In this document: piece by piece, positions 1-53,750 of the stretch | Numbering within the stretch: the first letter of the stretch is position 1 | How the letters are laid out: each line of letters begins with the position of its first letter | Source: Methanococcoides vulcani | GTDB taxonomy: Archaea > Halobacteriota > Methanosarcinia > Methanosarcinales > Methanosarcinaceae | DNA: 64,000 nt | Assembly (NCBI RefSeq): GCF_900111645.1 | Contig: NZ_FOHQ01000001.1 | Location: 505,468 to 569,467, forward strand | Reading direction: 5' to 3' | Notes under the pieces: model-generated | The model's input: the letters and a program-made list of their open reading frames with translations, nothing else | Databases searched by the model: none | What the model was told of the DNA's origin: nothing | Translations under genes and position numbers: made by a program

Positions 1-81
1 TCAATATCAGTGTTTTCTTCATCCTATCCTGCCCTACAATGGCAGTGAAAGGGTAGGTTGTTTTGGAATTGCTTTTCATAT

Positions 82-1994: not shown

Positions 1995-2585
1995 ATGAAA
2001 CACAGGAAAATTGCTCTAATTGCCGCCTTTACTGCTGGAATGATTGTTATTGCAGTTACGCTTTTGAATCCAGTACTCTCCGAGAAAGTACTGTATCATG
2101 AAGGGTTCGAAGAAGATTATGGCATAGCAGACAGTCCCATGCTCACCCATGCAGACGGTACGTTGTGTCTGGATACAGGCGAACCGATGAACATGAATGG
2201 GGGAGAATGGAGTAAAAATGTAACACTGCAACCTGCAAAAATATCATGGCATTGGTCTGGAGAAGACCTGAGCGGTTTCCAGCTCTGGATGAAACTTACT
2301 TTCAACAATCACAAGTCCATCTGTTATGTGGCAAGTGGTAGTATGAATCCGCTATCACAGGGAGAATTTTACCGGGACGAGGAGAATAGGATGAGGTTCT
2401 CGCCGTCCGTAGTAATATCAGGAATTCCAATGAATTCGGTAAAAAGAGATGTCAGGGAGGACTATGAAAAATACTGTGGCTCCTTTGGCGATGTGGAGAT
2501 TGTCCGGATAAGTGTAGGCATGAAAGATGAAAGCCCGGAATATCGAAACATGCTCAATATCTCGGATATCATGATATATACATAA
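1995..2585 (+). CDS. secreted or membrane-anchored protein of unknown function, first gene of the cobN/ECF operon
   Basis: I do not recognise the family. The 196-aa protein has a basic start (MKHRK) and one hydrophobic segment at residues 6-28, then a polar region rich in Asn, Ser and aromatic residues with three Cys, so it should act outside the membrane. No lipobox is visible. The ATG lies only about 25 nt past a TATA-like stretch and has no clear ribosome-binding site, so the message may be nearly leaderless. The lipoprotein gene starts 13 nt after its stop, which suggests co-transcription with the beta-propeller lipoproteins and the transporter. A carbohydrate-binding-like beta fold is possible but unproven. 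Confidence 0.65.
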   Translation: MKHRKIALIAAFTAGMIVIAVTLLNPVLSEKVLYHEGFEEDYGIADSPMLTHADGTLCLDTGEPMNMNGGEWSKNVTLQPAKISWHWSGEDLSGFQLWMKLTFNNHKSICYVASGSMNPLSQGEFYRDEENRMRFSPSVVISGIPMNSVKRDVREDYEKYCGSFGDVEIVRISVGMKDESPEYRNMLNISDIMIYT

Positions 2586-2598
2586 AAAGGTGATAAAT

Positions 2599-4095
2599 AT
2601 GCAAAAAACAATAATGGCCGTGTTGATCACATTACTAGCTGTTGTATTATTTTCAGGGTGCATAGCCCAAAGCGAAAACATGGATGTGATCGAAACCGAT
2701 AGTATTGCTCAGGTAATTGAAGAAGAACAGTCATACGATGAAAATGCAGAACCAAACACTGCATCTAAAACTATGCCTGTTGGCGATGAATTCCAGTCTC
2801 CATATATGGTGTGGGAGCTGGAACTTGAAAACGTCCCGGCAGAGAACATTTCACAGGGGTGGACAAATGTCAGGGAATGTACAAAATTCTCACCCGATGG
2901 CAAAACCGTGGTGGTGGGTACAGCAAATGGCCATATCCAGGCTATTGATGTGATAAGTGGAGAGGTATCCTGGGAGAAAACCGTCGCTGGAGCCATTTAT
3001 GACATGTCATTTTCAAAGGATGGAATGTACCTGATGGTGGGTGAAAAAAGCCAGGAGGGTTATATATACTCACTAAATGCCCATTCCGGGGAAGAAGTGC
3101 ACAGGTACAGGACTGCTGATGACCTTGGAACACATTCAGTTGCAAAATATCAACCTGCTGTGTACAGGATAATCACCACCAATGATTCCGTATACGTTGC
3201 TGCAAGCAGATACTGGAAGGACGATACGTACAGTCTGGCATCCAGGGTGTACAGATTCAATCCGGACGGAACTCTTGTATGGAAACTCCCCGCTTCAGGG
3301 AACTATGACCGCAGCATTAATTGGATTGATTCAAGCCTTGATGGAGACAATGTGGTCTTTGTAGCAGGTGACTGGACGAACTCGCTTGGAGTTGATGCAG
3401 TCGTCCACTCTGTTGATAAGAACGGTAATCTGAGATGGGATTTTGAAATTGAACCGCTTAAACCTTATTTTACTTCGGCTGCAGTCTGGCATGGGCTGGA
3501 TGTCTCGGATGATGGGGATCTTATAACCGTCCTTACAGGTGACGGGCGGGCATATCTGTTCAATGACTCGAATATAGGAAGGATAGCTAAGCCAGAGTGG
3601 CAAATAGAGGTCTCCACTCCACAGGAGGTGGCTGGAAGTGCCATATATGCCTATGGTGACAGTGCATATGTCGCCGCAGATGGAATCATCTATGTTACCG
3701 GGTCCACATTCCCGGCATACTACCCTGACAGCGTGCCAATGGAACATCCCGATGGAAATTCCCTTTTAGTATATGATTTTGATGGGAACCTTTCATGGAA
3801 GTATGGAATGGAAGGACACAGCAGTGGCATTTCTTTCTCAAAGGATAAACAGCAGTTCTCCCTGCTTGTCGGTAAGAACATCGTCACCGGAGATACATAC
3901 GCCCATGGATTATATGTCTTTGACAACCAGATCCCTGGAAGCGCTTCTTCCAAGATGTACTGGATGTTTAACACAGAGGGCATAGTTGTGGATTCGGACA
4001 TCTCAGCTGAAGGATACCAGGTAGCCATCGAGGTGCCTGTAGAATTGGAAAATGGGGATGTGATGGGGGAACACAGGTTGATACTTCTGAGGTGA
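2599..4095 (+). CDS. beta-propeller (WD40/PQQ-like) surface lipoprotein
   Basis: Predicted 498-aa lipoprotein: the signal segment ends in the lipobox LFSGC, giving a lipidated Cys at about residue 21. An Asp/Glu-rich linker follows, then repeated blades of the type F-S-P-D-G-K (near 95), FSKDG, FNPDG and SVDKNG with intervening Trp residues, typical of WD40/PQQ-like propellers. The start is the ATG behind AGGTGAT, not the upstream in-frame GTG. It is about half identical by eye to the next gene, including the shared HPxGNSL-V-YD-DGNL block. Placement before a CobN-like chelatase and an ECF importer suggests a surface receptor or scaffold for the imported ligand; that role is inference. Confidence 0.8.
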   Translation: MQKTIMAVLITLLAVVLFSGCIAQSENMDVIETDSIAQVIEEEQSYDENAEPNTASKTMPVGDEFQSPYMVWELELENVPAENISQGWTNVRECTKFSPDGKTVVVGTANGHIQAIDVISGEVSWEKTVAGAIYDMSFSKDGMYLMVGEKSQEGYIYSLNAHSGEEVHRYRTADDLGTHSVAKYQPAVYRIITTNDSVYVAASRYWKDDTYSLASRVYRFNPDGTLVWKLPASGNYDRSINWIDSSLDGDNVVFVAGDWTNSLGVDAVVHSVDKNGNLRWDFEIEPLKPYFTSAAVWHGLDVSDDGDLITVLTGDGRAYLFNDSNIGRIAKPEWQIEVSTPQEVAGSAIYAYGDSAYVAADGIIYVTGSTFPAYYPDSVPMEHPDGNSLLVYDFDGNLSWKYGMEGHSSGISFSKDKQQFSLLVGKNIVTGDTYAHGLYVFDNQIPGSASSKMYWMFNTEGIVVDSDISAEGYQVAIEVPVELENGDVMGEHRLILLR

Positions 4096-4099
4096 AAAG

Positions 4100-5782
4100 A
4101 TGAAATGGAAAATTATAATGATCTTACTTGCGGTTTCAATGATCGCAGGATGTGTTTCTGAAAACCCTGATACAAACAGCACGTCAGCATCAATTTCAGG
4201 GGATGTTGAAAATACGGCAGAGGCTGGAGTCCCCATCGACTCGATTCTCTTTATGCGGACTGGTGCCCTCATAAGTATGGGGAATGACGAAGAGGTTTCC
4301 ACCATTAATGTATATGATGGCGGGAAACAGCTGGTCTCACAAAGTGTGGGGGAGCGTGTGAAAGAGGTCTTTGCAGGTTTTGACTGGGACCAGAACGTGA
4401 AATACAGATTCGAGGTCGTAGCAGACAACAATGCGGTTAGCACATTGGACGTATATGCCCCTGCCAAGCCTGCGCTACTTAATGTGGATACGATCGAGCT
4501 TGAAGATGTGGAACCCGGCGAGATATGCAAGACCACAAATAATGTGGAAGGTGTCTTGAAGTTCTCTCCTGATGGCAGGTATCTTTGTATTGGGACCCAT
4601 AACGGTCATCTGCGTATTATTAATGTGGTTGAGGGGAATGAGATATTTGATGAAAAAATATCCGAAGGAAATATTATGTGTATGGAGTTCTCTCCTGACA
4701 GCAGCTCCCTATACGTAACAGAAAAGAGTATTGATGGATTTATCTACTGTTTCGATATCAATGGAACACAGCGCTGGAAGTTCAGGATTGCGGATGATCT
4801 GGGATCCGACCTCAAATACATGCCTTCTGTAAGAAAGGTAGTTTTCGATTCTGATGGGAATGTCTATGCTGCAGGCAGCCGTTATTGTGGCTGGGTCTCA
4901 GGGACGTTCAAATACAGTGCAAGGGTATACTCACTTGATCCCGAAGGTAATCTTCTCTGGAAGTTCCCGGATTCGGAGAACATGGACTCTGGGGTGTCAT
5001 GGATTGATGCAACACCGGATGGCGAATATGTGGTCTTCAGCACTGCAAATTTCGGGAAGTCTGAAAAATGGAAAGATGGAACAGTTCATGTCTTAAATGG
5101 AGAATCTGGAGAGGAACTGTGGAACTATAAGATCCCACCTCTGGAGCCTTATTTTAAATCGGTATCCGTCTGGTACAGCACGACCATCACACCTGATGGA
5201 AATTATGTGACCTCACTTGCAAGTGATGGACGCGGTTATCTATTCAACAACAAAGAGATCCTGCAGACCGGAAATTCAGAACCTGTGTGGCAAAAGAACA
5301 TATCCACACCTATTACCGTGAGCGGCATTCCAATCTATGGTAGTGCCAATTACGGCTACAACGTCAATGACAGCATCATATTCTCGGTAGGAAGTACTTT
5401 CTCAAAAGCTAAAGATAAGGATGCTCCGATCGAGCACCCCGGAGGAAACAGCCTGTATGTCTATGATCTGGATGGCAATCTCCTCTGGAAGTGGAGAGTT
5501 GAAGGCTATACAGGAGAGCTGGGGATTGCAGACCCCTACCTTGTTGCACCCATATCCCAGAATCTGGTGACAAACAACCTGGATGTCCACGGAGTCTACG
5601 TATTTGACATGTCCAAGAATGGTGGTGCCACATCAAAGCTTGTCAATGTGTACCGGACAGAGGGTATCACCATAGCAGCCGATATCTCCCCCGATGGCAG
5701 GTATATTGCAGCTTTCGAGGCTCCTGCAAGACTGGAGGACGGCAGCGTGATCGGAGATTACAAGGTTCATATTTTAAATTAA
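4100..5782 (+). CDS. paralogous beta-propeller surface lipoprotein with N-terminal extra domain
   Basis: A 560-aa lipoprotein, lipobox SMIAGC (Cys about residue 18). Compared with the preceding paralogue it carries roughly 100 extra residues after the signal, reading like a small beta-sandwich (TINVYDGGKQLVSQ onward). The propeller follows, with FSPDGRYLCIG, FSPDSSSLYV, LDPEGNLLWKF and ISPDGRY blades. It starts 5 nt after the previous stop behind AGGTGAAAAG. The tandem arrangement implies duplication followed by divergence, perhaps two receptors with different partners. The exact ligand cannot be read from the sequence. Confidence 0.8.
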   Translation: MKWKIIMILLAVSMIAGCVSENPDTNSTSASISGDVENTAEAGVPIDSILFMRTGALISMGNDEEVSTINVYDGGKQLVSQSVGERVKEVFAGFDWDQNVKYRFEVVADNNAVSTLDVYAPAKPALLNVDTIELEDVEPGEICKTTNNVEGVLKFSPDGRYLCIGTHNGHLRIINVVEGNEIFDEKISEGNIMCMEFSPDSSSLYVTEKSIDGFIYCFDINGTQRWKFRIADDLGSDLKYMPSVRKVVFDSDGNVYAAGSRYCGWVSGTFKYSARVYSLDPEGNLLWKFPDSENMDSGVSWIDATPDGEYVVFSTANFGKSEKWKDGTVHVLNGESGEELWNYKIPPLEPYFKSVSVWYSTTITPDGNYVTSLASDGRGYLFNNKEILQTGNSEPVWQKNISTPITVSGIPIYGSANYGYNVNDSIIFSVGSTFSKAKDKDAPIEHPGGNSLYVYDLDGNLLWKWRVEGYTGELGIADPYLVAPISQNLVTNNLDVHGVYVFDMSKNGGATSKLVNVYRTEGITIAADISPDGRYIAAFEAPARLEDGSVIGDYKVHILN

Positions 5783-5792
5783 GAGGTTGATC

Positions 5793-8700
5793 ATGAAAAT
5801 AGCATCTATAATGTGGAACTCTTATATTCCGGTGCTTGCAAGGGCGAGCGAGAAACTCGGGTTCGAACTAGCTGCATATGCCACCGGAGTTCTTGAAGAC
5901 GATCCCCAAAAGATGGAGGAGGCAGTTAAGGCGTGTGATGAGGCGGATGTGATCCTCCTCTATCATACGGATAATTTTTTTTGGGAAGAACTTGAGGAAA
6001 AACTAGAGTCTATAAAGGACAGGGTTCCTGTTGTATGTCTTGGACATGACCCGGCGTATTGGAAGCTTTCGACAGTGGGACCGGAGATTGTAGCCAATTG
6101 TTATTCCTATATCACCTTTAATGGTGAGGAGAACCTCACCAACCTCTTGCTTTATCTCGGAAAAGAAGCTTTGGGACTGGAACTTGAGGCCGGGCCCCCT
6201 AAAAAGGTACTATGGGATGGGCTGTACCATCCGGACGCATCGTACCAATTCCCAAACGTAGACAAGTATCTCCAGTGGTATAAGCCTGATAGCAGGAGGA
6301 CTGTCGGAATCCTGTTTTCGAGAACCTCATGGGTAAACAATGCTCTGGATATCGAGAATACCTTAATAAAAGAGCTTGAAAGTAGGGGTTTGGGCGTGAT
6401 ACCTGTCTTTACCTATTCTGTTAAAGATGATGAGCTGGGTGCCAGGGGGATGGACGAGGTCATCAACGAGTACTTTGTCAAAGACGGAAAACCCCTTATT
6501 GATGCTCTTGTGAAACTTTCACCTTTCTTTATCACAAGTAGCATCAACAAGACACATGATGAGGCAAATGCCAGAAATGGTATTGGCCTGTTAACGGAAC
6601 TTGATGTCCCTGTGTTCCAGCCCATTATTTCATACCATACGACAACGGAACAGTGGGAAGAGTCCAATGGTCTTAGCAGTGACATTGGCTGGAGCGTGGC
6701 CATGCCTGAGTTCGAAGGCGTTATTGAGCCTATAATAATAGGTGCAGGCCGAGTGCAGGATAACTATATAGAACGCATTCCCATAGTGGAACGTTGCTCC
6801 AAACTGGCATCAAGGGTGGAAAAATGGGTGCAGCTAAGGAATAAGCCGATCTCAGAGCGCAGGGTTGCTTTCATCCTTCATAACAATCCATGTGCAAGTG
6901 TCGAAGCCACTGTCGGTGGTGCTGCTCACCTCGATTCCATTGAAAGCACGGCACGGATATTGAACCGGATGCAAGATGAGGGGTATCAGATCAATCCGCC
7001 TGTAGATGGCAAGGAGCTCATCGACACCATCATGAAAAAGAAGGCGATCTCAGAGTTCAGATGGACGACAGTGGGAGAGATTGTTAAAAACGGCGGTTAT
7101 CTGGACCTTGTGGATAAAGAACAATATGAGGTTTTTTTCAATACACTTAGTCCGAAGGTCAAAGACAGAATGATCGATGCATGGGGTAATCCTCCCGGTG
7201 AGGCAAAGGACGGTGTGCCCGCTGCAATGGTCCATGAATGTAAGATAGTTGTGACGGGCGTGGGTTTTGGTAATGCGGTAGTCTGTGTGCAGCCAAAACG
7301 CGGATGTGCCGGTACCAGATGTGATGGAGAAGTATGCAAGATATTACATGATCCTGATCTTCCGCCAACGCACCAGTATTTGGCGACTTACCGATATCTT
7401 GAGAACACCTTTGGGGCAGATGTGCTGGTTCATGTGGGCACACATGGGAACATGGAGTTCCTGCCGGGCAAAGGTGTGGGTCTCTCTGGTGAATGCTACC
7501 CTGACATTGCAATAGGCAGTATTCCGCATCTGTATATCTACAACGCTGATAATCCGCCGGAGGGGGCAATTGCCAAGCGGAGGGGGCTTGCCACACTCGT
7601 TGACCATATGCAGACCGTTATGACTGGTAGCGGACTTTATGATGAACTGGAAGAACTTGATCGGTTGCTTGGGGAATACGAGCAGGCTAAACATGATCCC
7701 GGGCGTGCACATGCACTTGAGCACCTGATCTATGATGAGATCGACAAATCCAATCTCCGGTCTGAAATACGTCTTGAGGATAATATGCCCTTCGGCGATG
7801 TTGTAACCCGGACACATGAGGCCCTCGGAAAAATACGAAACACACAAATACAGAGTGGAATGCACATCTTTGGCCAACTGCCAAAGGGGGAAAGACGTGT
7901 CGAGTTCATAAACTCCATTTTGCGATATGATGATGCTGATGGAGGTGCTTCACTTCGCAGGATCATGGCAGGTCTGATGGAACTGGATTTTGACAAACTC
8001 ATTATTGATAAGGGTGCGGTATTGCCAGACGGCAGGTCCACAGGTCAGATCCTTGAGGAAATAGATGCCTTATGCAAAGATTTCATCAGGAAATGTCTGG
8101 AGGACAACACAACGGATGTATCTGCAATTGTGGGAGAGATACTCGGCGACCGCTTGCTAGGTACAGAGACAGGGCTTGCAGCAATCAGTGAACGCATCGC
8201 TGACCTTAACCTGCGGATAGAAGATTCAAAAGAGATTGAAAGCCTGTTGCATGGGTTCGATGGAGGTTATATTCCTGCGGGTCCTTCAGGCCTTATTACA
8301 CGGGGCAGGGATGACATATTGCCCACAGGCAGGAATTTCTATTCTCTTGATCCGTATAAGGTTCCTACCAAAGCCGCCTGGCGAGTTGGGAAGAAATTGT
8401 CACAGGCTGTGGTTGATAAATATGTAAACGAAGAAAGCAAGCTTCCCGAAAATCTGGCATTCTACTGGATGGCAAGCGACATCATGTGGGCAGATGGTGA
8501 AGGGATGGCACAGATAATGAGCTTGTTGGGTGTTGAACCTGTCTGGCAGGGCAACGGCAGGGTCAAGAGTTTTAAGATCATCCCGCAGGACAAGCTTGGA
8601 AGACCCAGAATAGACGTTACTCTCAGGGTATCGGGCATCCTTCGTGATAACTTCCCCAACTGTATCGAACTTATAGATGAAGCCATACAGGCTGTCGCAT

Positions 8701-9611
8701 CACTGGATGAACCACTGGACATGAACTATGTACGCAAGCATTCCCTTGAGATGGCAAAGGAGGGTACAAGCTGGCGGGATGCGACCCTGAGGATATTTTC
8801 AAGCAAACCCGGGACATATTCCGCTGGTGTACAGCTTGCGGTGTATGCCAGTGCGTGGAAAGATGAAAAGGACCTTGCTGAAATATTCCTTTACTGGAAC
8901 GGCTATGCCTATGGAAAGGACGTAAATGGGACAGAGGCTCACCAGCATCTTGCTAATAATCTGAAAACGGTTGACGCCACCTTCAACAAAGTTGTAACTG
9001 ATGAATATGATCTGTGCGGATGTTGTTGTTATTTTGGCGCCCATGGCGGGATGACCGCGGCTGCAAGACATCTTTCAGGAAAGGAGGTGAAAACATACTA
9101 TGGTGATACCAGAGAGCCCGGACATGTTGAGGTCAGAGACCTGGCCGACGAGATCAGGCGTGTGGTCAGGACAAAACTTCTGAATCCCAAGTGGATAGAG
9201 GGGATGAAGGAGCACGGATACAAAGGGGCAGGCGATATTTCCAAGAGGATTGGAAGGGTATATGGCTGGGAGGCATCCACTCAGGAGGTCGATGACTGGA
9301 TCTTTGATGACATAACAAAGACCTTTGTGCTGGATGATGAGACGCGGCAGTTCTTTGAAGAAAATAACCCGTATGCTCTGGAAGAGATCGGCCGCAGGTT
9401 ACTGGAAGCCGAGTCAAGGGGATTATGGGATGCTGATCCGGATGTGCTTGATGGGCTTAAAAATGCTTACCTTGAAATAGAAGGCTGGATGGAAGACCTA
9501 GCAGGGGAAGGGGAGTTCCAGGGCGGAGCCGTGGATATCATGACGACGGAAGATGTTCCCGACTGGAATGAGAAAATGCAAGAGATCAGAATGAAGATCA
9601 AGGCAGACTGA
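5793..9611 (+). CDS. CobN-like large chelatase subunit (CobN/Mg-chelatase H family)
   Basis: A 1272-aa cytoplasmic protein covering the whole CobN/BchH family length. Landmarks are HVGTHGN at 547-553 followed by EFLPGK, the PPTHQYLA block, ADNPPEGAIAKRR, and the C-terminal NPKWIEGMKEHGYKGA block. The family inserts or removes metals in tetrapyrroles with ATPase partners. No CobS/CobT or ChlI/ChlD gene is beside it, so the partner is elsewhere or not needed. Two Cys clusters are unusual: C505-x4-C510-x4-C515, and C1075-G-C-C-C1079 just before FGAHGG. The ATG at 5793 follows GAGGTT. Operon context with an ECF importer and surface lipoproteins suggests tetrapyrrole handling during uptake. Cobaltochelatase is the default alternative; HmuS-type haem dechelatases belong to the same family. 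Confidence 0.87.
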   Translation: MKIASIMWNSYIPVLARASEKLGFELAAYATGVLEDDPQKMEEAVKACDEADVILLYHTDNFFWEELEEKLESIKDRVPVVCLGHDPAYWKLSTVGPEIVANCYSYITFNGEENLTNLLLYLGKEALGLELEAGPPKKVLWDGLYHPDASYQFPNVDKYLQWYKPDSRRTVGILFSRTSWVNNALDIENTLIKELESRGLGVIPVFTYSVKDDELGARGMDEVINEYFVKDGKPLIDALVKLSPFFITSSINKTHDEANARNGIGLLTELDVPVFQPIISYHTTTEQWEESNGLSSDIGWSVAMPEFEGVIEPIIIGAGRVQDNYIERIPIVERCSKLASRVEKWVQLRNKPISERRVAFILHNNPCASVEATVGGAAHLDSIESTARILNRMQDEGYQINPPVDGKELIDTIMKKKAISEFRWTTVGEIVKNGGYLDLVDKEQYEVFFNTLSPKVKDRMIDAWGNPPGEAKDGVPAAMVHECKIVVTGVGFGNAVVCVQPKRGCAGTRCDGEVCKILHDPDLPPTHQYLATYRYLENTFGADVLVHVGTHGNMEFLPGKGVGLSGECYPDIAIGSIPHLYIYNADNPPEGAIAKRRGLATLVDHMQTVMTGSGLYDELEELDRLLGEYEQAKHDPGRAHALEHLIYDEIDKSNLRSEIRLEDNMPFGDVVTRTHEALGKIRNTQIQSGMHIFGQLPKGERRVEFINSILRYDDADGGASLRRIMAGLMELDFDKLIIDKGAVLPDGRSTGQILEEIDALCKDFIRKCLEDNTTDVSAIVGEILGDRLLGTETGLAAISERIADLNLRIEDSKEIESLLHGFDGGYIPAGPSGLITRGRDDILPTGRNFYSLDPYKVPTKAAWRVGKKLSQAVVDKYVNEESKLPENLAFYWMASDIMWADGEGMAQIMSLLGVEPVWQGNGRVKSFKIIPQDKLGRPRIDVTLRVSGILRDNFPNCIELIDEAIQAVASLDEPLDMNYVRKHSLEMAKEGTSWRDATLRIFSSKPGTYSAGVQLAVYASAWKDEKDLAEIFLYWNGYAYGKDVNGTEAHQHLANNLKTVDATFNKVVTDEYDLCGCCCYFGAHGGMTAAARHLSGKEVKTYYGDTREPGHVEVRDLADEIRRVVRTKLLNPKWIEGMKEHGYKGAGDISKRIGRVYGWEASTQEVDDWIFDDITKTFVLDDETRQFFEENNPYALEEIGRRLLEAESRGLWDADPDVLDGLKNAYLEIEGWMEDLAGEGEFQGGAVDIMTTEDVPDWNEKMQEIRMKIKAD

Positions 9612-11173
9612 TGAAACCGATACTGTTAGCTCTGGTTCTGGTACTTCTCACTCTTCCCCTGAGCACAGCACAGGACGTAGGATTTGCACCAGAGGAGATG
9701 TTCTCCTTTTCGGTGCAGGTCCCCTATGGTGCTAAAGAGGGTGGACTTGCAGTACAGGGCAGCAACCTCTCAGCATATCTTTTTGTGGAGAGCTTCCAAC
9801 ACGGGGACATGGATGTCAGAGTACATCTGGACCTTCCTGATGAGTTCGAGGTAAAAGACGAAACCGTGCAGATGTTCAGGCTTCACACCGAGTATGATGA
9901 TTGGTATCGGTTCATCGATTTTCATGTTCCGCCTGATGTACCTTGCGGGATATATACCATTAACACAACAGCATACATTGATTTTGGGGACCAGCATGAG
10001 ATAATCGAGCGCAAGACCACGCTCAGGGTCGCATCAAAGAATGAAATTTCTGACATGATCTCCATAGTCAGTGTGGTGATACCATCTGATGAAGATGGAG
10101 TGGGCGATCCAAGCAGACCGGAAAACTCCATCATTCTGCAGGAAGCCTCCCCATTCATCAACAAAATTAAAAAGATAGCTGGTATGGGTGATAGCAATGA
10201 GGATGTCAGGGTAAGCTATGTTGGAGTTGAGATCGAAAACAATGGTGATGAAGCAGTACCACTGATTGTGTCCTATGAGATCCTTGATATCAAGACCATG
10301 CAGGAGATCGGAGAGTTCAAACCAACCCTTATGGGCATGTCAAGCAAAACATTCAGCTATTCTAACATCATACTGCCTGCACGATCAAGTAAGGTCGTTG
10401 GCCTGCCTATCTACACCACAGATTCGGTAATGGGCGGCGAGTATCTGCTTCGTGCCCGGGTAACGGTCACTGGAAGTAACTGGGATGCCGCAACGTCTGA
10501 TAATAAGATCACTGCTATCTCCAGAAACTGGACTTCAGTAGTTGTCAGTTTAGTTGCCTTTTTCTTGAGCATTACTACCATCGGGATATTTGTGTCACGT
10601 TCAAACGAAATCATGAACAGCTTTAAAACTCGTCATCTTGTGATGATATCCCTCTTTGGTACTGCCTCCTTTGCGGCGGTAAATATCCCCATGACCTTCC
10701 TATGGGAGATATCCCATGCTGTATTTGGACCCTTCAGTTTCCTTTTCACGGGCATCTTTTATGAAGTGATCCTGTACATGCTGATTGTTGCAGCTGTGGT
10801 GCTGATACCAAAACCGGGTGTTGTGTTCCTGCTGCTGATGGTCCGTTACCTGTTAAATGGTATAGTGCTTGGACATTTTAATCCGGTATTCCTGTTATCC
10901 TATTCTGTCAATGCAATTATTCTGGAAATCATGCTGTATGCAGCAGGTACAACCAGAGGAAATATGGACAAGCTCAAGACAGGGCTGGCATGTGGAGTTG
11001 CAGATGCGATATCCCAGTATGTCTCCTTCAGTCTCTGGATGGTTTTGTACAGACTGTTCTACAGTGATTGGTACCTCAAAGCCAATATCCTCATTGACGG
11101 TTTTATCTACACTTTCATCGGGGCATGGCTAGGGATAAAACTTGGTAGCAAACTCAAGAAGGTGGTTGAATGA
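9611..11173 (+). CDS. ectodomain fused to ECF transporter S-component-like membrane domain
   Basis: A 520-aa protein. A signal peptide (residues 1-20, ending STAQ) leads into an extracytoplasmic region of about 285 residues that reads as two or three beta-sandwich domains (VRVHLDLPDEFEV; VSYVGVEIENNGDEAVPL). One membrane span lies near 307-329. About five to six further spans cover 345-515, with IPKPGVVFLLLMVRYLLNG resembling the K-P-G segment of ECF S-components. S-components give an ECF importer its substrate specificity. They are normally about 180-200 residues without a large exterior, so this is a fusion. It overlaps the chelatase stop (TGATG) and the downstream ATPase start (ATGA). The substrate is inferred only from the neighbours. 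Confidence 0.68.
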   Translation: MKPILLALVLVLLTLPLSTAQDVGFAPEEMFSFSVQVPYGAKEGGLAVQGSNLSAYLFVESFQHGDMDVRVHLDLPDEFEVKDETVQMFRLHTEYDDWYRFIDFHVPPDVPCGIYTINTTAYIDFGDQHEIIERKTTLRVASKNEISDMISIVSVVIPSDEDGVGDPSRPENSIILQEASPFINKIKKIAGMGDSNEDVRVSYVGVEIENNGDEAVPLIVSYEILDIKTMQEIGEFKPTLMGMSSKTFSYSNIILPARSSKVVGLPIYTTDSVMGGEYLLRARVTVTGSNWDAATSDNKITAISRNWTSVVVSLVAFFLSITTIGIFVSRSNEIMNSFKTRHLVMISLFGTASFAAVNIPMTFLWEISHAVFGPFSFLFTGIFYEVILYMLIVAAVVLIPKPGVVFLLLMVRYLLNGIVLGHFNPVFLLSYSVNAIILEIMLYAAGTTRGNMDKLKTGLACGVADAISQYVSFSLWMVLYRLFYSDWYLKANILIDGFIYTFIGAWLGIKLGSKLKKVVE

Positions 11174-12825
11174 TTGTTATTGAAGATCTATGGTACACTT
11201 ATCCAGGAAGAAACGAACCCACACTAAGAGGGATTGATCTCACCATCGAGGAAGGGGAGTTCGTGCTAATAACAGGTCCAACGGGATGTGGAAAAAGTAC
11301 ACTGCTAAAAATGCTCAACGGTATCATCCCGCATGAGTCGGGCGGGGAAATGACGGGAAAGGTCAACATCAATGATGTGAATACTGCTGATTCCTGTATG
11401 ATGGACCTTGCCCAGCTTACGGGACTGGTCTTCCAGAATCCTGATGACCAGATATTCTCGACTGTTGTTGAAGATGAGATTGCTTTTGGACCTGAGAATC
11501 TCTGTTTCTCAAAAAGCGAGATTGACAGAAGGGTTTTGGATTCGCTTGAGATGGTAGGTATGTCTGATCACAGATATGCACAGACCAGCAAACTCTCAGG
11601 TGGCCAGAAACAACGTATATGTATTGCAAGCATGCTGGCAATGATGCCGGGAATTCTGGTTCTGGATGAGCCGATCAGCCAGCTGGATCCAAAGGGTGCT
11701 GCCGATGTCATGCACACGATCCGGGAGCTCAACAGGAAACTGGACCTGACCATTGTTCTTGTGGAGCACCGTCTCCATGAGATTGCACATCTTGTCGACC
11801 GCATAGTTGTAATGGATGAAGGCAAGATCGTGCTCGATGCGCCCATTTCAAAAGCATTTGAACACATAGGGCTATTCCACAGTCTTGGACTCAGGATCCC
11901 TGAAACTGTAGAACTCTTCCACAGGCTTGGATATGACAGGTTGCCGCTTCTGGTCGATGATGCATTGGACATGCTTGGCAAACAGTCAGGATGTAATACG
12001 GTTCCACTCTACGAAAGCAGCGACTACCCCAATGAACAATGCAACAGGGGAGATCCTGTGATATCCATAACAGACGTATGGTTTGGATATGAAAAGGATA
12101 CAATGGTGCTAAAAGGTATAGACCTTGATATCCATGAAGGAGAACGCGTTGCATTGATGGGAACCAACGGTTCGGGAAAGTCCACTCTGCTGCTACATCT
12201 CTCAGCGATGTTAAAGCCCGATAAAGGAAGTGTTGAGATCATGGGAATTGATACCGGATCTAAAGGTCCCTATTCCTTTGCAAGTAAAGTGGGACTGGTT
12301 TTCCAGAATCCTGACCTTATGCTCTTTTGTGACAGCGTTGAGGAAGAAGTAAGGTTTGCACCTTCAAATCTGGGATTGGAGGACCCGGTACAGATGGCCG
12401 GGAACGCTCTTGAATCCATGTCGATCCTTGATCTGCGATTAGACCCTCCCCAGGCATTGAGCAGGGGGCAGAGGCTGAGAACGGCTGTGGCTTCTGTATT
12501 ATCCGTCCAGCCAAAGCTCATGCTTCTTGATGAGCCAACTACCGGACAGGATAAGCTTCATATCGAACAGATGATGGAACACTTTGTGAAAAATGACAAC
12601 ACCTTGGTTTTCTGTACACATGATGTTGAGACCGCTATACGTTATGCAACCCGGATCGTTGTTATGAACGAGGGAACCGTGTTAGCGGATGGTGACAGTA
12701 GAGGTGTCTTTAAGGATGTAGAAGTGCTTGAGCGGGCATCCTTGAAACAGCCTTGTGCTATGCAGATAGCTCGAAGTCTTGGGCTGGATGCATTTTGTGT
12801 GGATGAACTGGTGGAGATATTATGA
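11170..12825 (+). CDS. fused double ATPase of an ECF transporter (EcfA-EcfA')
   Basis: A 551-aa protein with two complete ABC nucleotide-binding domains, replacing the usual separate EcfA1 and EcfA2. Domain 1: Walker A GPTGCGKST (about 37-45), signature LSGGQ, Walker B VLDEPISQLD. Domain 2: Walker A GTNGSGKST (about 331), signature LSRGQ, Walker B LLDEPTTGQD. The second signature departs from LSGGQ (G to R), so the two ATP sites are asymmetric. Each half has the Q-loop FQNPD typical of ECF/CbiO-type ATPases. It powers the S-component/EcfT complex encoded on either side, with 4-bp overlaps at both junctions. Confidence 0.92.
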   Translation: MIVIEDLWYTYPGRNEPTLRGIDLTIEEGEFVLITGPTGCGKSTLLKMLNGIIPHESGGEMTGKVNINDVNTADSCMMDLAQLTGLVFQNPDDQIFSTVVEDEIAFGPENLCFSKSEIDRRVLDSLEMVGMSDHRYAQTSKLSGGQKQRICIASMLAMMPGILVLDEPISQLDPKGAADVMHTIRELNRKLDLTIVLVEHRLHEIAHLVDRIVVMDEGKIVLDAPISKAFEHIGLFHSLGLRIPETVELFHRLGYDRLPLLVDDALDMLGKQSGCNTVPLYESSDYPNEQCNRGDPVISITDVWFGYEKDTMVLKGIDLDIHEGERVALMGTNGSGKSTLLLHLSAMLKPDKGSVEIMGIDTGSKGPYSFASKVGLVFQNPDLMLFCDSVEEEVRFAPSNLGLEDPVQMAGNALESMSILDLRLDPPQALSRGQRLRTAVASVLSVQPKLMLLDEPTTGQDKLHIEQMMEHFVKNDNTLVFCTHDVETAIRYATRIVVMNEGTVLADGDSRGVFKDVEVLERASLKQPCAMQIARSLGLDAFCVDELVEIL

Positions 12826-13715
12826 TACGTGCAAGATCTATTTCAGAACCCACGATCAAGGATACAATAATCCATCGGATGGATCCCAGAGCAAAGATCA
12901 TAATGTTGGTGGCGGTTTCATTTATTGTTGTAGCCCTGGATAATCCTGAAACCATGTTGATCCTGTTCCTGACAGTTCTTGGTGGGTTCATACCTGCAAA
13001 AATGCCGCTCATAAAGCTGAAAACCCTGGGTTTCTTATTGTTACTTTTGATCTGGGGTACTATGTATTCCCAGGCCCTGTTCTATTCCCAGCTTCCAAGA
13101 ACTGTGATCTTCACGATAATAAGCCCGGACCTCCCGTTCCTTGGCTGGTTCACGCATGGTGGATTGTTCATATACAAAGAAGGAATCCATTACGGAGCCG
13201 TACAAGCCCTGCGGTCAGCTACCGTACTGTCACTTGGATTATTGATGGGCTGGACAACCGATCCAAGAGATATGTTAAACGGTCTTGTGAGACTTAAGAT
13301 CCCATACAGCGTGGCTTTTATGGTGGTCACAGCCGTACGTTTCCTGCCAATCGTTATTGCAGAGGTGGCAACTGTGGTAGCGGTCCAGCGGCTCAAGGGC
13401 TTTAAACCTACAAAATTCGGATATGGCATGATCAAGACAGCTTTGGGAATACTTACCCCCACTCTTGCCAATTGTGTGAGGCGGGCAGGTGTCCTTGCGG
13501 TATCGATTGAAAGCAGGGCGTTCCGTGCTAACCCGACACGCACATATCTTAAGGAACTTAGATGTTCCAATTTTGACATTGCAATCATAACGATCACAGT
13601 TTCACTTGCAATAGCCATCATAAGTGTCAAGATACTCTTTAACCTGTACACAAGTGAGGTTTATTATTCCACGTATTTAAGAGAGATTTATGCATTCGCG
13701 AGATGGTACCTTTGA
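12822..13715 (+). CDS. ECF transporter transmembrane subunit EcfT (CbiQ-like)
   Basis: A 297-aa membrane protein with about five to six spans (residues about 25-70, 75-90, 130-150, 165-185, 245-270). It has the long cytoplasmic coupling-helix region ending in the Ala-Arg motif SIESRAFRANPTR, matching the A-R-x motifs through which EcfT contacts the paired ATPases. The D-P-R-A-K motif near residue 20 is also typical of the family. The gene overlaps both neighbours, so it is translated from one message with the double ATPase and the fused S-component. Confidence 0.9.
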   Translation: MIRARSISEPTIKDTIIHRMDPRAKIIMLVAVSFIVVALDNPETMLILFLTVLGGFIPAKMPLIKLKTLGFLLLLLIWGTMYSQALFYSQLPRTVIFTIISPDLPFLGWFTHGGLFIYKEGIHYGAVQALRSATVLSLGLLMGWTTDPRDMLNGLVRLKIPYSVAFMVVTAVRFLPIVIAEVATVVAVQRLKGFKPTKFGYGMIKTALGILTPTLANCVRRAGVLAVSIESRAFRANPTRTYLKELRCSNFDIAIITITVSLAIAIISVKILFNLYTSEVYYSTYLREIYAFARWYL

Positions 13716-14479
13716 TAGAAATTAACGGTTTAACAAAGTATTTCGGGGATCTATGTGCTGTTGACCATATAGATCTTGAAGTTGGAAATGAGATATTTGG
13801 TCTTCTTGGTCCAAACGGTGCAGGAAAAAGTACCACTGTCAGGTTGCTCACCACACTGCTAACACCCAATAGCGGCTCAGCACGGGTCTGTGGATATGAT
13901 GTTGTAAAAGAACCCAACAAGGTACGGGAGTCCATAAGTTATGTGCCTCAGGATATGGCAGTTGACATAAAACTGACCGGACGTGAGAATGTACGGCTCT
14001 ATGCCAAGATATACCGTGTGCCTGACAGGGAAAATCAGGTGGATAATGTACTTGAACTGATGGAACTTACCGAGCGTGCAGATGACCTTGTAAGAACATA
14101 TTCCGGCGGTATGCGAAGAAGACTGGAACTGGCACAGGCCCTTGTGCACAAACCTAATGTATTGTTCCTGGATGAGCCTACCTTGGGACTGGATGTGGCT
14201 GCACGCAAAAAGATATGGGAACATATATCCATGCTACGAGAGCGAGGCATGACTATTTTCATGACCACGCACTATATGGAAGAGGCGGATGAGTATTGTG
14301 ACAGGGTTGCTATCATCGATAAAGGTAACATTGTAACTGTGGATTCGCCAAAGAACCTGAAACAACGTCTTGGGACTGGTGCTTCAATGAACGATGTTTT
14401 CCTTGAAAATATCAAAACTGCAGAAGAGGAAGGTTTTGATGCATTCAGGTTTAGAAGTATGTTGAGGAGGAGGACATGA
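13703..14479 (+). CDS. ABC-2 type transporter ATP-binding protein (DrrA-like)
   Basis: A 258-aa ATPase: Walker A GPNGAGKST (about 35), Q-loop VPQD, signature YSGGM, Walker B LFLDEPTLGLD, and the switch His in TTHYMEEAD. The GLLGPNGAGKSTTVRLLTTLL block is characteristic of DrrA/NatA-like ATPases that work with ABC-2 permeases. It overlaps the end of ecfT by 13 bp and is followed by its permease. In this operon it probably powers export, perhaps of a processed product or envelope component; the substrate is unknown. Confidence 0.92.
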   Translation: MVPLIEINGLTKYFGDLCAVDHIDLEVGNEIFGLLGPNGAGKSTTVRLLTTLLTPNSGSARVCGYDVVKEPNKVRESISYVPQDMAVDIKLTGRENVRLYAKIYRVPDRENQVDNVLELMELTERADDLVRTYSGGMRRRLELAQALVHKPNVLFLDEPTLGLDVAARKKIWEHISMLRERGMTIFMTTHYMEEADEYCDRVAIIDKGNIVTVDSPKNLKQRLGTGASMNDVFLENIKTAEEEGFDAFRFRSMLRRRT

Positions 14480-15201
14480 GGGCAATTATACATTACTTTG
14501 AGAGGGACTTTAAGAAATGGACACGCGGTAGGATAAATGTTTTCAGTTCACTTATGATGCCGGCTGCATGGCTTATACTGGTAGGGCTTACTCTTCCCAC
14601 AAAGTTCACGGATAACTATCTTGAATTCATAACACCAGGAATACTGGTAATGACCATGCTCTTCTCCTCACTTCAAGGAGGGTCGCTTATGATATTTGAG
14701 AAAATGCTGGGTTTTCTGAACAAATTCCTTGCAATGCCTGCACCCCGGGAGAGCATTCTCTTTGGAAAGATCATGTTCATCACCACCCGCGGCCTGCTCC
14801 AGACAACCGTGATACTCATAATTGCCACACTGCTTGGGGTGAGGTTGGAAAATCCGATGAACATTGTTCTAATCTATATTACACTGTTCCTATTCGGAGT
14901 GCTATTTTCGTCCCTTTCCACAACGGTAGCCCTTCATCTTAGCGACCACGATGGATATGCGGCAGTAAGCAGCATGGTGAGTATGCCGCTCTTCTTCACA
15001 AGCAGTGCGCTCATGCCTTATGATGTCATGCCTGAATGGTTAAGGTTTATGGCACACCTGAATCCTGTAAGCTATGCTATAGACAGCACACGGGAACTGT
15101 TCACAGGAGGAATACCGTTTGAAGGAATAGCAGGACTTGCAGTTGCTGCAGCAATAATGTTGATTATTGGTATCTATCAATTCAGGAAAGCCACTGTGTG
15201 A
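14476..15201 (+). CDS. ABC-2 type transporter permease
   Basis: A 241-aa protein with six predicted spans and the ABC-2 signature region LNPVSYAIDSTRELFTGG near residue 197. It starts behind GGAGGAGG and overlaps the ATPase by 4 bp. It is the partner of the DrrA-like ATPase and the last gene of the operon that begins at 1995; decayed transposase DNA starts soon after. No intrinsic terminator is obvious directly after the stop. Confidence 0.9.
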   Translation: MRAIIHYFERDFKKWTRGRINVFSSLMMPAAWLILVGLTLPTKFTDNYLEFITPGILVMTMLFSSLQGGSLMIFEKMLGFLNKFLAMPAPRESILFGKIMFITTRGLLQTTVILIIATLLGVRLENPMNIVLIYITLFLFGVLFSSLSTTVALHLSDHDGYAAVSSMVSMPLFFTSSALMPYDVMPEWLRFMAHLNPVSYAIDSTRELFTGGIPFEGIAGLAVAAAIMLIIGIYQFRKATV

Positions 15202-15245: not shown

Positions 15246-15566
15246 TTAACATCGTGTGGGTAAACTCAGTTTACCTGCCATTAAGAATATCATTGTATTC
15301 CTATACGTCTCAGTCTTTAACCCGTACAATCTCTTAAAAGCAGTCTTTATCTTGTTGTTCGATCCTTCAACAACACCATTACTGATATTTTCCTTAATTG
15401 ATTCCAGTATCCCATAAGAAATCCTTTTTATCATCTTTGCTAATGTGATAATTTCCTTGATGTTGCTGTGTGTTCCCCAATAATGCCATTTTTCAAGATA
15501 TTCTCTTATTACTTCTACATTTTTGATTTCCCACAATCGTTGAAGTCCAGAGAATTGCGATTAACT
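15246..15566 (-). pseudogene. C-terminal remnant of an ISL3-family transposase
   Basis: About 100 residues remain, in frame from roughly 15566. They read LWEIKN...NGVVEGSNNKIKTAFKR-YG...YRNTMIFLMAGKL, the end of an ISL3 DDE transposase (N-G-V-V-E-G-x-N-x-x-I-K motif). An in-frame stop lies just upstream, and the catalytic core and N-terminus are gone. It lies immediately downstream of the ABC-2 permease, so an insertion once bounded this operon. Confidence 0.7.
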
Positions 15567-53354: not shown

Positions 53355-53750
53355 TTATAGTACTTCTGATGCTCTGTCGAACACAAGGTCTGCGAGGAGT
53401 TCGTGGTGACCCAGTGGTTTACCATAGACGACAGGAACTTCCTTTCCATCTACTGCAAATTTACCTTCGTTTGTTTCAGGGTCAAGTTTGAGGATCTCAG
53501 GGATATCTTCTGTGATGTGTACGCCTGATGCGAGGAATACTGGTACTGCTGCGATCTTTGTAACACCTGTGCCTTCAAAAGATGCGAGTCCCTCTTCTAC
53601 GGATGGGCCGCAGTTCTCCATGAAGCCTGTTTTGATAATATATTCGGGGTGCTTCTTTGCAATGGTGTCTGCGATCTCTGTAACAACTTCCTTGTTGTAA
53701 GGCAGTCTGCTTCCGTGTCCAATAGCTAAGATTCCTATCTTTTCGCTCAT
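53355..53750 (-). CDS. cfbA: sirohydrochlorin nickelochelatase
   Basis: A 131-aa small CbiX-type chelatase that inserts Ni into sirohydrochlorin (first committed F430 step). It shows [16 protein letters not shown] with the active-site His near 11 and [16 protein letters not shown] with the second His near 76. The start at 53750 follows AGAGGTATA; an upstream in-frame extension lacks one. It is the first gene of the cfb operon. Confidence 0.95.

Follow-up and report, generated by a model that had tools for sequence, protein, structure and literature searches.

The 64,000-nucleotide stretch analysed here (the window; G000:C5:505468-569467) is part of the 2.31-Mb, 15-contig genome of the archaeon Methanococcoides vulcani, which is related to Methanosarcina at the family level, and carries near its left end a locus of surface-type proteins, an energy-coupling factor (ECF) importer and a CobN-like chelatase subunit. 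All nine forward-strand genes of the original prediction were present at 1995-15201 in an open reading frame (ORF) check, and since adjacent genes are separated by 4-bp gaps or overlap by 1-13 bp, a single operon is credible. The first gene encodes a small protein of 196 amino acids (aa) with an N-terminal transmembrane (TM) segment or signal (1995-2585), which is conserved in Methanosarcina, has no match in Pfam and gave no meaningful match in a PDB search. It is followed by two beta-propeller lipoproteins with PQQ_2/WD40 matches (2590-4095, lipobox FSGC; 4100-5782, lipobox IAGC), a cytoplasmic chelatase H subunit of the CobN/ChlH family (5787-9611; CobN-Mg_chel, 1300 bits), a fusion of a signal peptide, two immunoglobulin (Ig)-like ectodomains and, from about 10530, an S-component-like membrane domain (9611-11173), an ECF double ATPase (EcfA-EcfA', 11170-12825; TIGR04520, 442 bits vs a cut-off of 315), EcfT (12822-13715; matched to the CbiQ/EcfT family), a DrrA-like ABC-2 ATPase (13703-14479) and a DrrB-like ABC-2 permease (14476-15201; family match). 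The H subunit probably starts at the ATG at 5793, since its homologues start at residue 3.

The nine genes stand, but they form one of two divergent operons in a wider functional unit of eleven genes. The other, on the minus strand, is headed by a secreted protein with two S-layer domains (82-1800; TIGR01567/PF07752), syntenic in Methanosarcina, directly behind which lies a fused ChlI-ChlD (VWA) chelatase ATPase of 669 aa, hereafter ChlID. Only the 5' end of this gene (1-79, minus strand) falls in the window, its start codon being at position 79, and the remainder continues past the left edge (G000:C5:503537-505546; L005:13538-15547). ChlID passes TIGR02442 'putative cobaltochelatase' (878 bits vs a cut-off of 779) and adjoins the same gene set in Methanosarcina. 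Because the second operon runs off the window, the earlier argument that no CobS/CobT-like gene adjoins the locus is void, being an edge artefact. The companion claim that cobalamin synthesis genes are absent also fails, as CbiC is present in the genome and a small chelatase of the CbiX/CfbA family lies in the window itself (53379-53717, minus strand). The intergenic promoter region between the two operons (1801-1994) holds a TATA-like ATATTTATTAA near 1959, and no riboswitch reached the Rfam gathering threshold in L005, the source locus, or in five Methanosarcina loci. Directly behind the nine genes, a short minus-strand ORF (15246-15536) has, by eye, the look of a transposase remnant, which would fit horizontal transfer.

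The source genome holds four CobN-family genes. In a maximum-likelihood tree of the CobN C-terminal domain, computed with the GCCCYFG motif columns removed, the window protein and 43 relatives formed one clade (support 96/89), the sister of which is a paralogue adjoining a nickel/peptide-type importer (joint support 100/98). Characterised CobN formed a separate clade (100/95) with the window protein outside it, and HmuS grouped with the two secreted CobN proteins of this genome (100/97), a join made less sure by the long HmuS branch. By its place in this tree, the window CobN-like protein is a member of a fourth clade, neither true CobN nor HmuS. Among the NCBIfam equivalog models for CobN, it scored above the cut-off of NF004646 (2223 vs 1468) but below that of TIGR02257 (815 vs 822), and it also exceeded the cut-off of the BchH model TIGR02025 (857 vs 829). 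The prediction that this is not a plain cobaltochelatase is supported, although on grounds other than those originally offered: the protein does not cluster with true CobN, and the acidic motif of the latter is replaced. Pairing with CobST was likewise not seen, but an ATPase partner does exist in the form of ChlID, and the H subunit with nearby AAA+ (I) and VWA (D) parts corresponds to the architecture of class I, ATP-driven chelatases.

What sets the clade apart is its metal site. In HmuS, His538 (HFGTHG) and His1209 (LSLDHxxEFMGG) lie on opposite sides of a cleft and bind a cation, His1209 being supported by Glu1212 (PMC12583661). The first cleft histidine is retained in the window protein as His553 of GTHG (7443-7445), the equivalent of His538, and Cys1079-Cys1080-Cys1081 of GCCCYFG (9021-9029) fall at L1207-D1208-H1209 of HmuS and at the Ser-Asp-Asp site of CobN. 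The aligned residues read S-L-D-H-V-Y-E in HmuS, D-S-D-D-Y-F-Q in CobN, D-V-S-H-Y-F-D in ChlH and G-C-C-C-Y-F-G in the window protein, so that Cys1081 occupies the site of His1209 and Gly1084 that of Glu1212. GCCCY[FY]G is present in all examined clade members except that of L119 (GCCYYFG); at this place the sister group reads ECCHI[YF]G. A DNA pattern for the heptapeptide was found in 85 of the 393 genomes of the phylum, compared with 1 for a reversed-pattern control. The cysteines thus characterise the clade with strong conservation at the place where the other proteins hold the metal, and from that position Cys1079-1081 would be expected to bind the metal. No hydrophobic segment or membrane anchor was found in the window protein, whereas C8 and C9, the secreted paralogues, are anchored at the N- as well as the C-terminus, and the methionine-rich insertion of HmuS is likewise missing. 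Methanosarcina CobN proteins carry highly variable, repeat-like Glu/Lys/Asn-rich insertions between window residues ~786 and 798, from which the window copy is free.

Conservation of the unit was assessed by using the S-component fusion as query against 150 genomes of the order. Full-length matches were obtained in 18 of 21 Methanosarcina genomes and in one Methanosarcinales metagenome-assembled genome, and in none of eight further genomes sampled from the genus to which the window belongs. The Methanosarcina gene order is ChlID and S-layer gene on one side, then, divergently, 196-aa protein, propeller 1, propeller 2, CobN, S-fusion, EcfAA, EcfT, ABC-2 ATPase and ABC-2 permease, an eleven-gene synteny kept in 18 genomes at ~45-75% protein identity with a few propeller genes broken, which excludes chance as the origin of the unit. 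Judged by this synteny, the surface-type proteins, importer, H subunit, ID motor and exporter-type ABC pair are inherited as one unit, and the proposals that capture, import and a chelatase step belong together, and that the ECF genes accompany the CobN-like protein in relatives, both gain support, with other importers taking the place of ECF elsewhere. The patchy distribution suggests that the lineage of the window gained the unit horizontally or that it was lost repeatedly. The closest CobN relatives (85% in the C-terminal domain) belong not to Methanosarcina but to family group f2, and in one f2 genome 82 aa of the small first gene survive as a remnant immediately before CobN. Since the locus is lacking from the other species sampled in the genus, it is accessory rather than a step of F430 or B12 synthesis.

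The gene neighbourhoods of 21 Cys-type CobN genes from 20 further genomes of other families were surveyed within a 6-kb radius. ChlID was found near 14 of the 21, a BtuF-type binding protein near 17 and any BtuF/C/D component near 19, and an ABC-2 pair accompanied five; the ABC-2 ATPase is retained beside Cys-type CobN in many lineages, and the pair lies downstream of CobN in f2 and in G112, G113 and G115. In genome G133, which we take to be M. acetivorans, a CobN of the sister group lies ~12 kb away together with SBP_bac_5, two permeases and two ATPases. The best NCBIfam match of this SBP_bac_5 protein is nickel NikA, below the cut-off, and one of the permeases, of NikC type, scores 332 against a cut-off of 300 with NF045474 ('nickel transporter permease'). 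In Methanosarcina and the window, the ECF genes occupy the importer's place. From these arrangements, the constant part of the system is chelatase and motor, with the importer swapped among ECF, BtuFCD and NikABCDE-like types; metal chelates are a common cargo of two of the three. Because the importer is exchanged while chelatase and motor stay constant, the imported cargo is probably the chelatase substrate or its metal, and this exchange is the strongest argument for that link. Genes for archaeal pilins and for type IV pilus assembly recur at the flanks of the BtuFCD-Cys-CobN loci (L120, L169, L171, L176 and L178), and in many loci BtuF is immediately preceded by a protein of ~145-250 aa that belongs to no Pfam family, e.g. 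L120:11016-11450 (minus strand) and L185:2764-3513 (plus strand).

Like BtuFCD (corrinoid/siderophore-type) and ECF vitamin/metal importers, the window locus encodes a transport module, in this case the A-A' ATPases and EcfT, both matched to their families, and a putative S-like membrane domain. It differs from known ECF importers in that this domain is fused to two Ig-like ectodomains and is not of the CbiM/NikM family, as Pfam gave no CbiM match for the window locus. The predicted outline of the fusion stood, with a signal peptide, two Ig-like domains in an AlphaFold2 model and then ~6 predicted TM helices, but its S-component family could not be identified: PF09819 gave an E-value of only 0.02, the TM part of the model has a predicted local distance difference test (pLDDT) score below 50, and a PDB fold search with the model returned generic Ig-like matches. 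The S-domain assignment is thus a putative one, by position and topology. At L073:439-5226, adjoining a glutamyl-tRNA reductase (HemA)-like gene, a more distantly related Ig/S-component fusion occurs together with ECF A-A' and T genes of its own and a gene for a secreted protein, but with no CobN.

Several observations point to the metal. NikR genes adjoin three of the 20 surveyed loci (L182, L184 and L185; 0.23 expected, P ~0.002), in L185 directly behind ChlID. When the NikR consensus GTGTTAC-N13/14-GTAACAC (PMC545781) was scored in either orientation, upstream dyads were found with 13 of 14 bases in L171, 12 of 14 in L169 and L121, and 11 of 14 in L185. An enrichment of the half-site T[AG]TTAC (29 vs 8 expected) was dropped, and only full dyads were used as evidence, because control promoters were also enriched ~1.8-fold (51 vs 29). 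In M. marburgensis, CobN1 and NikR1 reach high levels only under nickel limitation (PMC12350162). The nickel-type importer beside the sister paralogue also speaks for nickel. A literature search with M. acetivorans gene tags found nothing. Nickel is the most likely metal, followed by cobalt.

Taken together, the locus may be a metal-chelate acquisition system with an ATP-driven thiolate chelatase, most likely for nickel, a reading to which we assign a probability of roughly 45%. In the proposed sequence of events, propellers and Ig domains would bind a metal complex (probably a tetrapyrrole carrying its metal, or a chelate resembling one), much as surface propeller lipoproteins of Bacteroides catch corrinoids (BtuG, PMC6143338). 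BtuG is likewise a surface-type propeller lipoprotein of an uptake locus, but had no sequence match to the window propeller lipoprotein in a PDB search. The ECF module would then import the captured complex, ATP hydrolysis by ChlID would drive CobN, the metal would pass between His553 and the Cys1079-1081 thiolates, which would pull it from the ligand, and the ABC-2 pair would export the emptied ligand. The direction of metal transfer, removal or insertion, and the nature of the ligand are what we infer from the sequences. A bolder and rather doubtful extension is that the clade, present in methanogens and related archaea, is a chelatase subfamily not recognised before, ATP-driven and with a triple-thiolate metal site. 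It would strip nickel from an imported nickel tetrapyrrole (e.g. F430 from dead cells) or other nickel chelate and recycle the empty ligand outward, in a cycle of nickel scavenging served by interchangeable importers.

A number of points weigh against a nickel-stripping system. Two of the three NikR-adjacent genomes hold 4-5 NikR copies, the sole NikR of the source genome is not adjacent to the locus, and no NikR dyad was found in the window promoter or the Methanosarcina promoters, so that the nickel assignment is carried over from relatives. M. marburgensis CobN1 is only a candidate member of the Cys clade. The main counter-evidence to nickel is found at L174:5139-11931 (plus strand), where a Cys-type CobN within a CbiD-TP_methylase-CobN-CbiA run points by gene context to cobalt and corrin synthesis. 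As regards the chemistry, ChlID and CobST partners are otherwise known for metal insertion, and HmuS, the sole proven de-chelatase, has neither a need for ATP nor such a partner. The geometry of the Cys site is deduced from alignment, the AlphaFold2 model of CobN being too poor (pLDDT 39), and substrate and enzyme activity are proposed from sequence.

The principal rival, which we consider possible if somewhat unlikely, is ATP-driven metal insertion. Here the importer would bring a metal ion or an empty tetrapyrrole, and, when nickel (or cobalt) is scarce, Cys-type CobN with ChlID would load it with high affinity in place of the small chelatase CfbA/CbiX, the cysteines presenting the metal to the ring. 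Textbook metal insertion is carried out by an H subunit that a ChlI/ChlD motor drives, and ChlID is adjacent; moreover, CobNS-like nickel chelatases were proposed for F430 by Kaster et al. (PMC3087415), and both the induction of M. marburgensis CobN1 by nickel limitation and the CbiD-CobN-CbiA genes of L174 would fit. Removal is nevertheless favoured, because CfbA/CbiX is already encoded in the window, cobalamin genes are present in the genome and the sampled congeners do without the locus. Surface propellers, an Ig receptor and BtuFCD-type importers would also be better matched to a bulky complex than to an ion on its own, and insertion leaves the ABC-2 pair unexplained.

Improbable by comparison is scavenging of haem or another iron-tetrapyrrole in the manner of HmuS, in which haem would be imported and its iron freed. 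Such a role is suggested by superfamily kinship, by the weak match of the BtuF protein of a related locus to IsdE and by the response of the CobN-like 'BtuS' proteins of M. barkeri to iron source (PMC10846266); MSBRM_0518, however, appears by its position to be of the secreted rather than the window type. The hallmarks of HmuS are absent: Cys and Gly replace His1209 and Glu1212, membrane anchors are missing and an ATPase partner is present. NikR and the nickel-type importers point elsewhere. The original HmuS analogy fits the two other, secreted CobN proteins of the genome, with which HmuS groups, and not the cytoplasmic one of the window. Least probable of all is a role at the surface or envelope, with ECF bringing a precursor and the ABC-2 pair and propellers exporting or placing a cofactor derived from a tetrapyrrole. 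Although the ABC-2 pair is kept with Cys-type CobN more widely than the ECF genes and S-layer and propeller genes are present, the commonest neighbours are BtuFCD-type import genes and the import and NikR links would go unexplained.

The locus is a real, conserved system and a variation on known chelatase-importer systems with a clear active-site signature. With CobN (partnered by CobST or ChlID; PDB 7c6o, 9uk9) it shares the H-subunit family, the GTHG motif and an ATPase/VWA partner, but it belongs to a separate clade, has Cys-Cys-Cys for the Asp-Asp metal site and stands in no cobalamin operon. The three-part architecture of magnesium chelatase (ChlH, ChlI and ChlD) is also kept, with I and D fused, in a different clade, without a chlorophyll context and with Cys1081 where ChlH has His. 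HmuS/BtuS (PDB 9d26) has in common with it the superfamily, the cleft histidine and a context of surface capture and import, yet is membrane-bound and NADH- rather than ATP-dependent. CobN-like proteins are common in archaea. Their functions were called unclear in a 2025 structural study of HmuS (PMC12583661). The present analysis sorts them into groups that have an active-site signature open to testing, a partner ATPase and particular transporters, the window-type enzyme having previously been filed under vitamin B12 synthesis. If the nickel reading is true, it would explain how methanogens supply the metal of their key cofactor in sulfidic habitats poor in free nickel, and would provide a first ATP-driven chelatase that may use cysteine thiolates.

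The remaining CobN genes of the genome lie outside the window. Two encode secreted, C-terminally anchored proteins, HmuS-like by the tree (L009:300-4940, plus strand, 1546 aa; L011:1052-7309, minus strand, 2085 aa); no chelatase ATPase or transporter gene was seen alongside either, and the best PDB match of the L009 protein is HmuS. The other (L007:3274-7032, minus strand; G000:C5 ~591 kb) is split by an in-frame TAG, possibly read through as pyrrolysine, and clusters with CbiX-like, NflD-like and fused NifH-NifD proteins, BtuCDF and two ChlI/ChlID genes.

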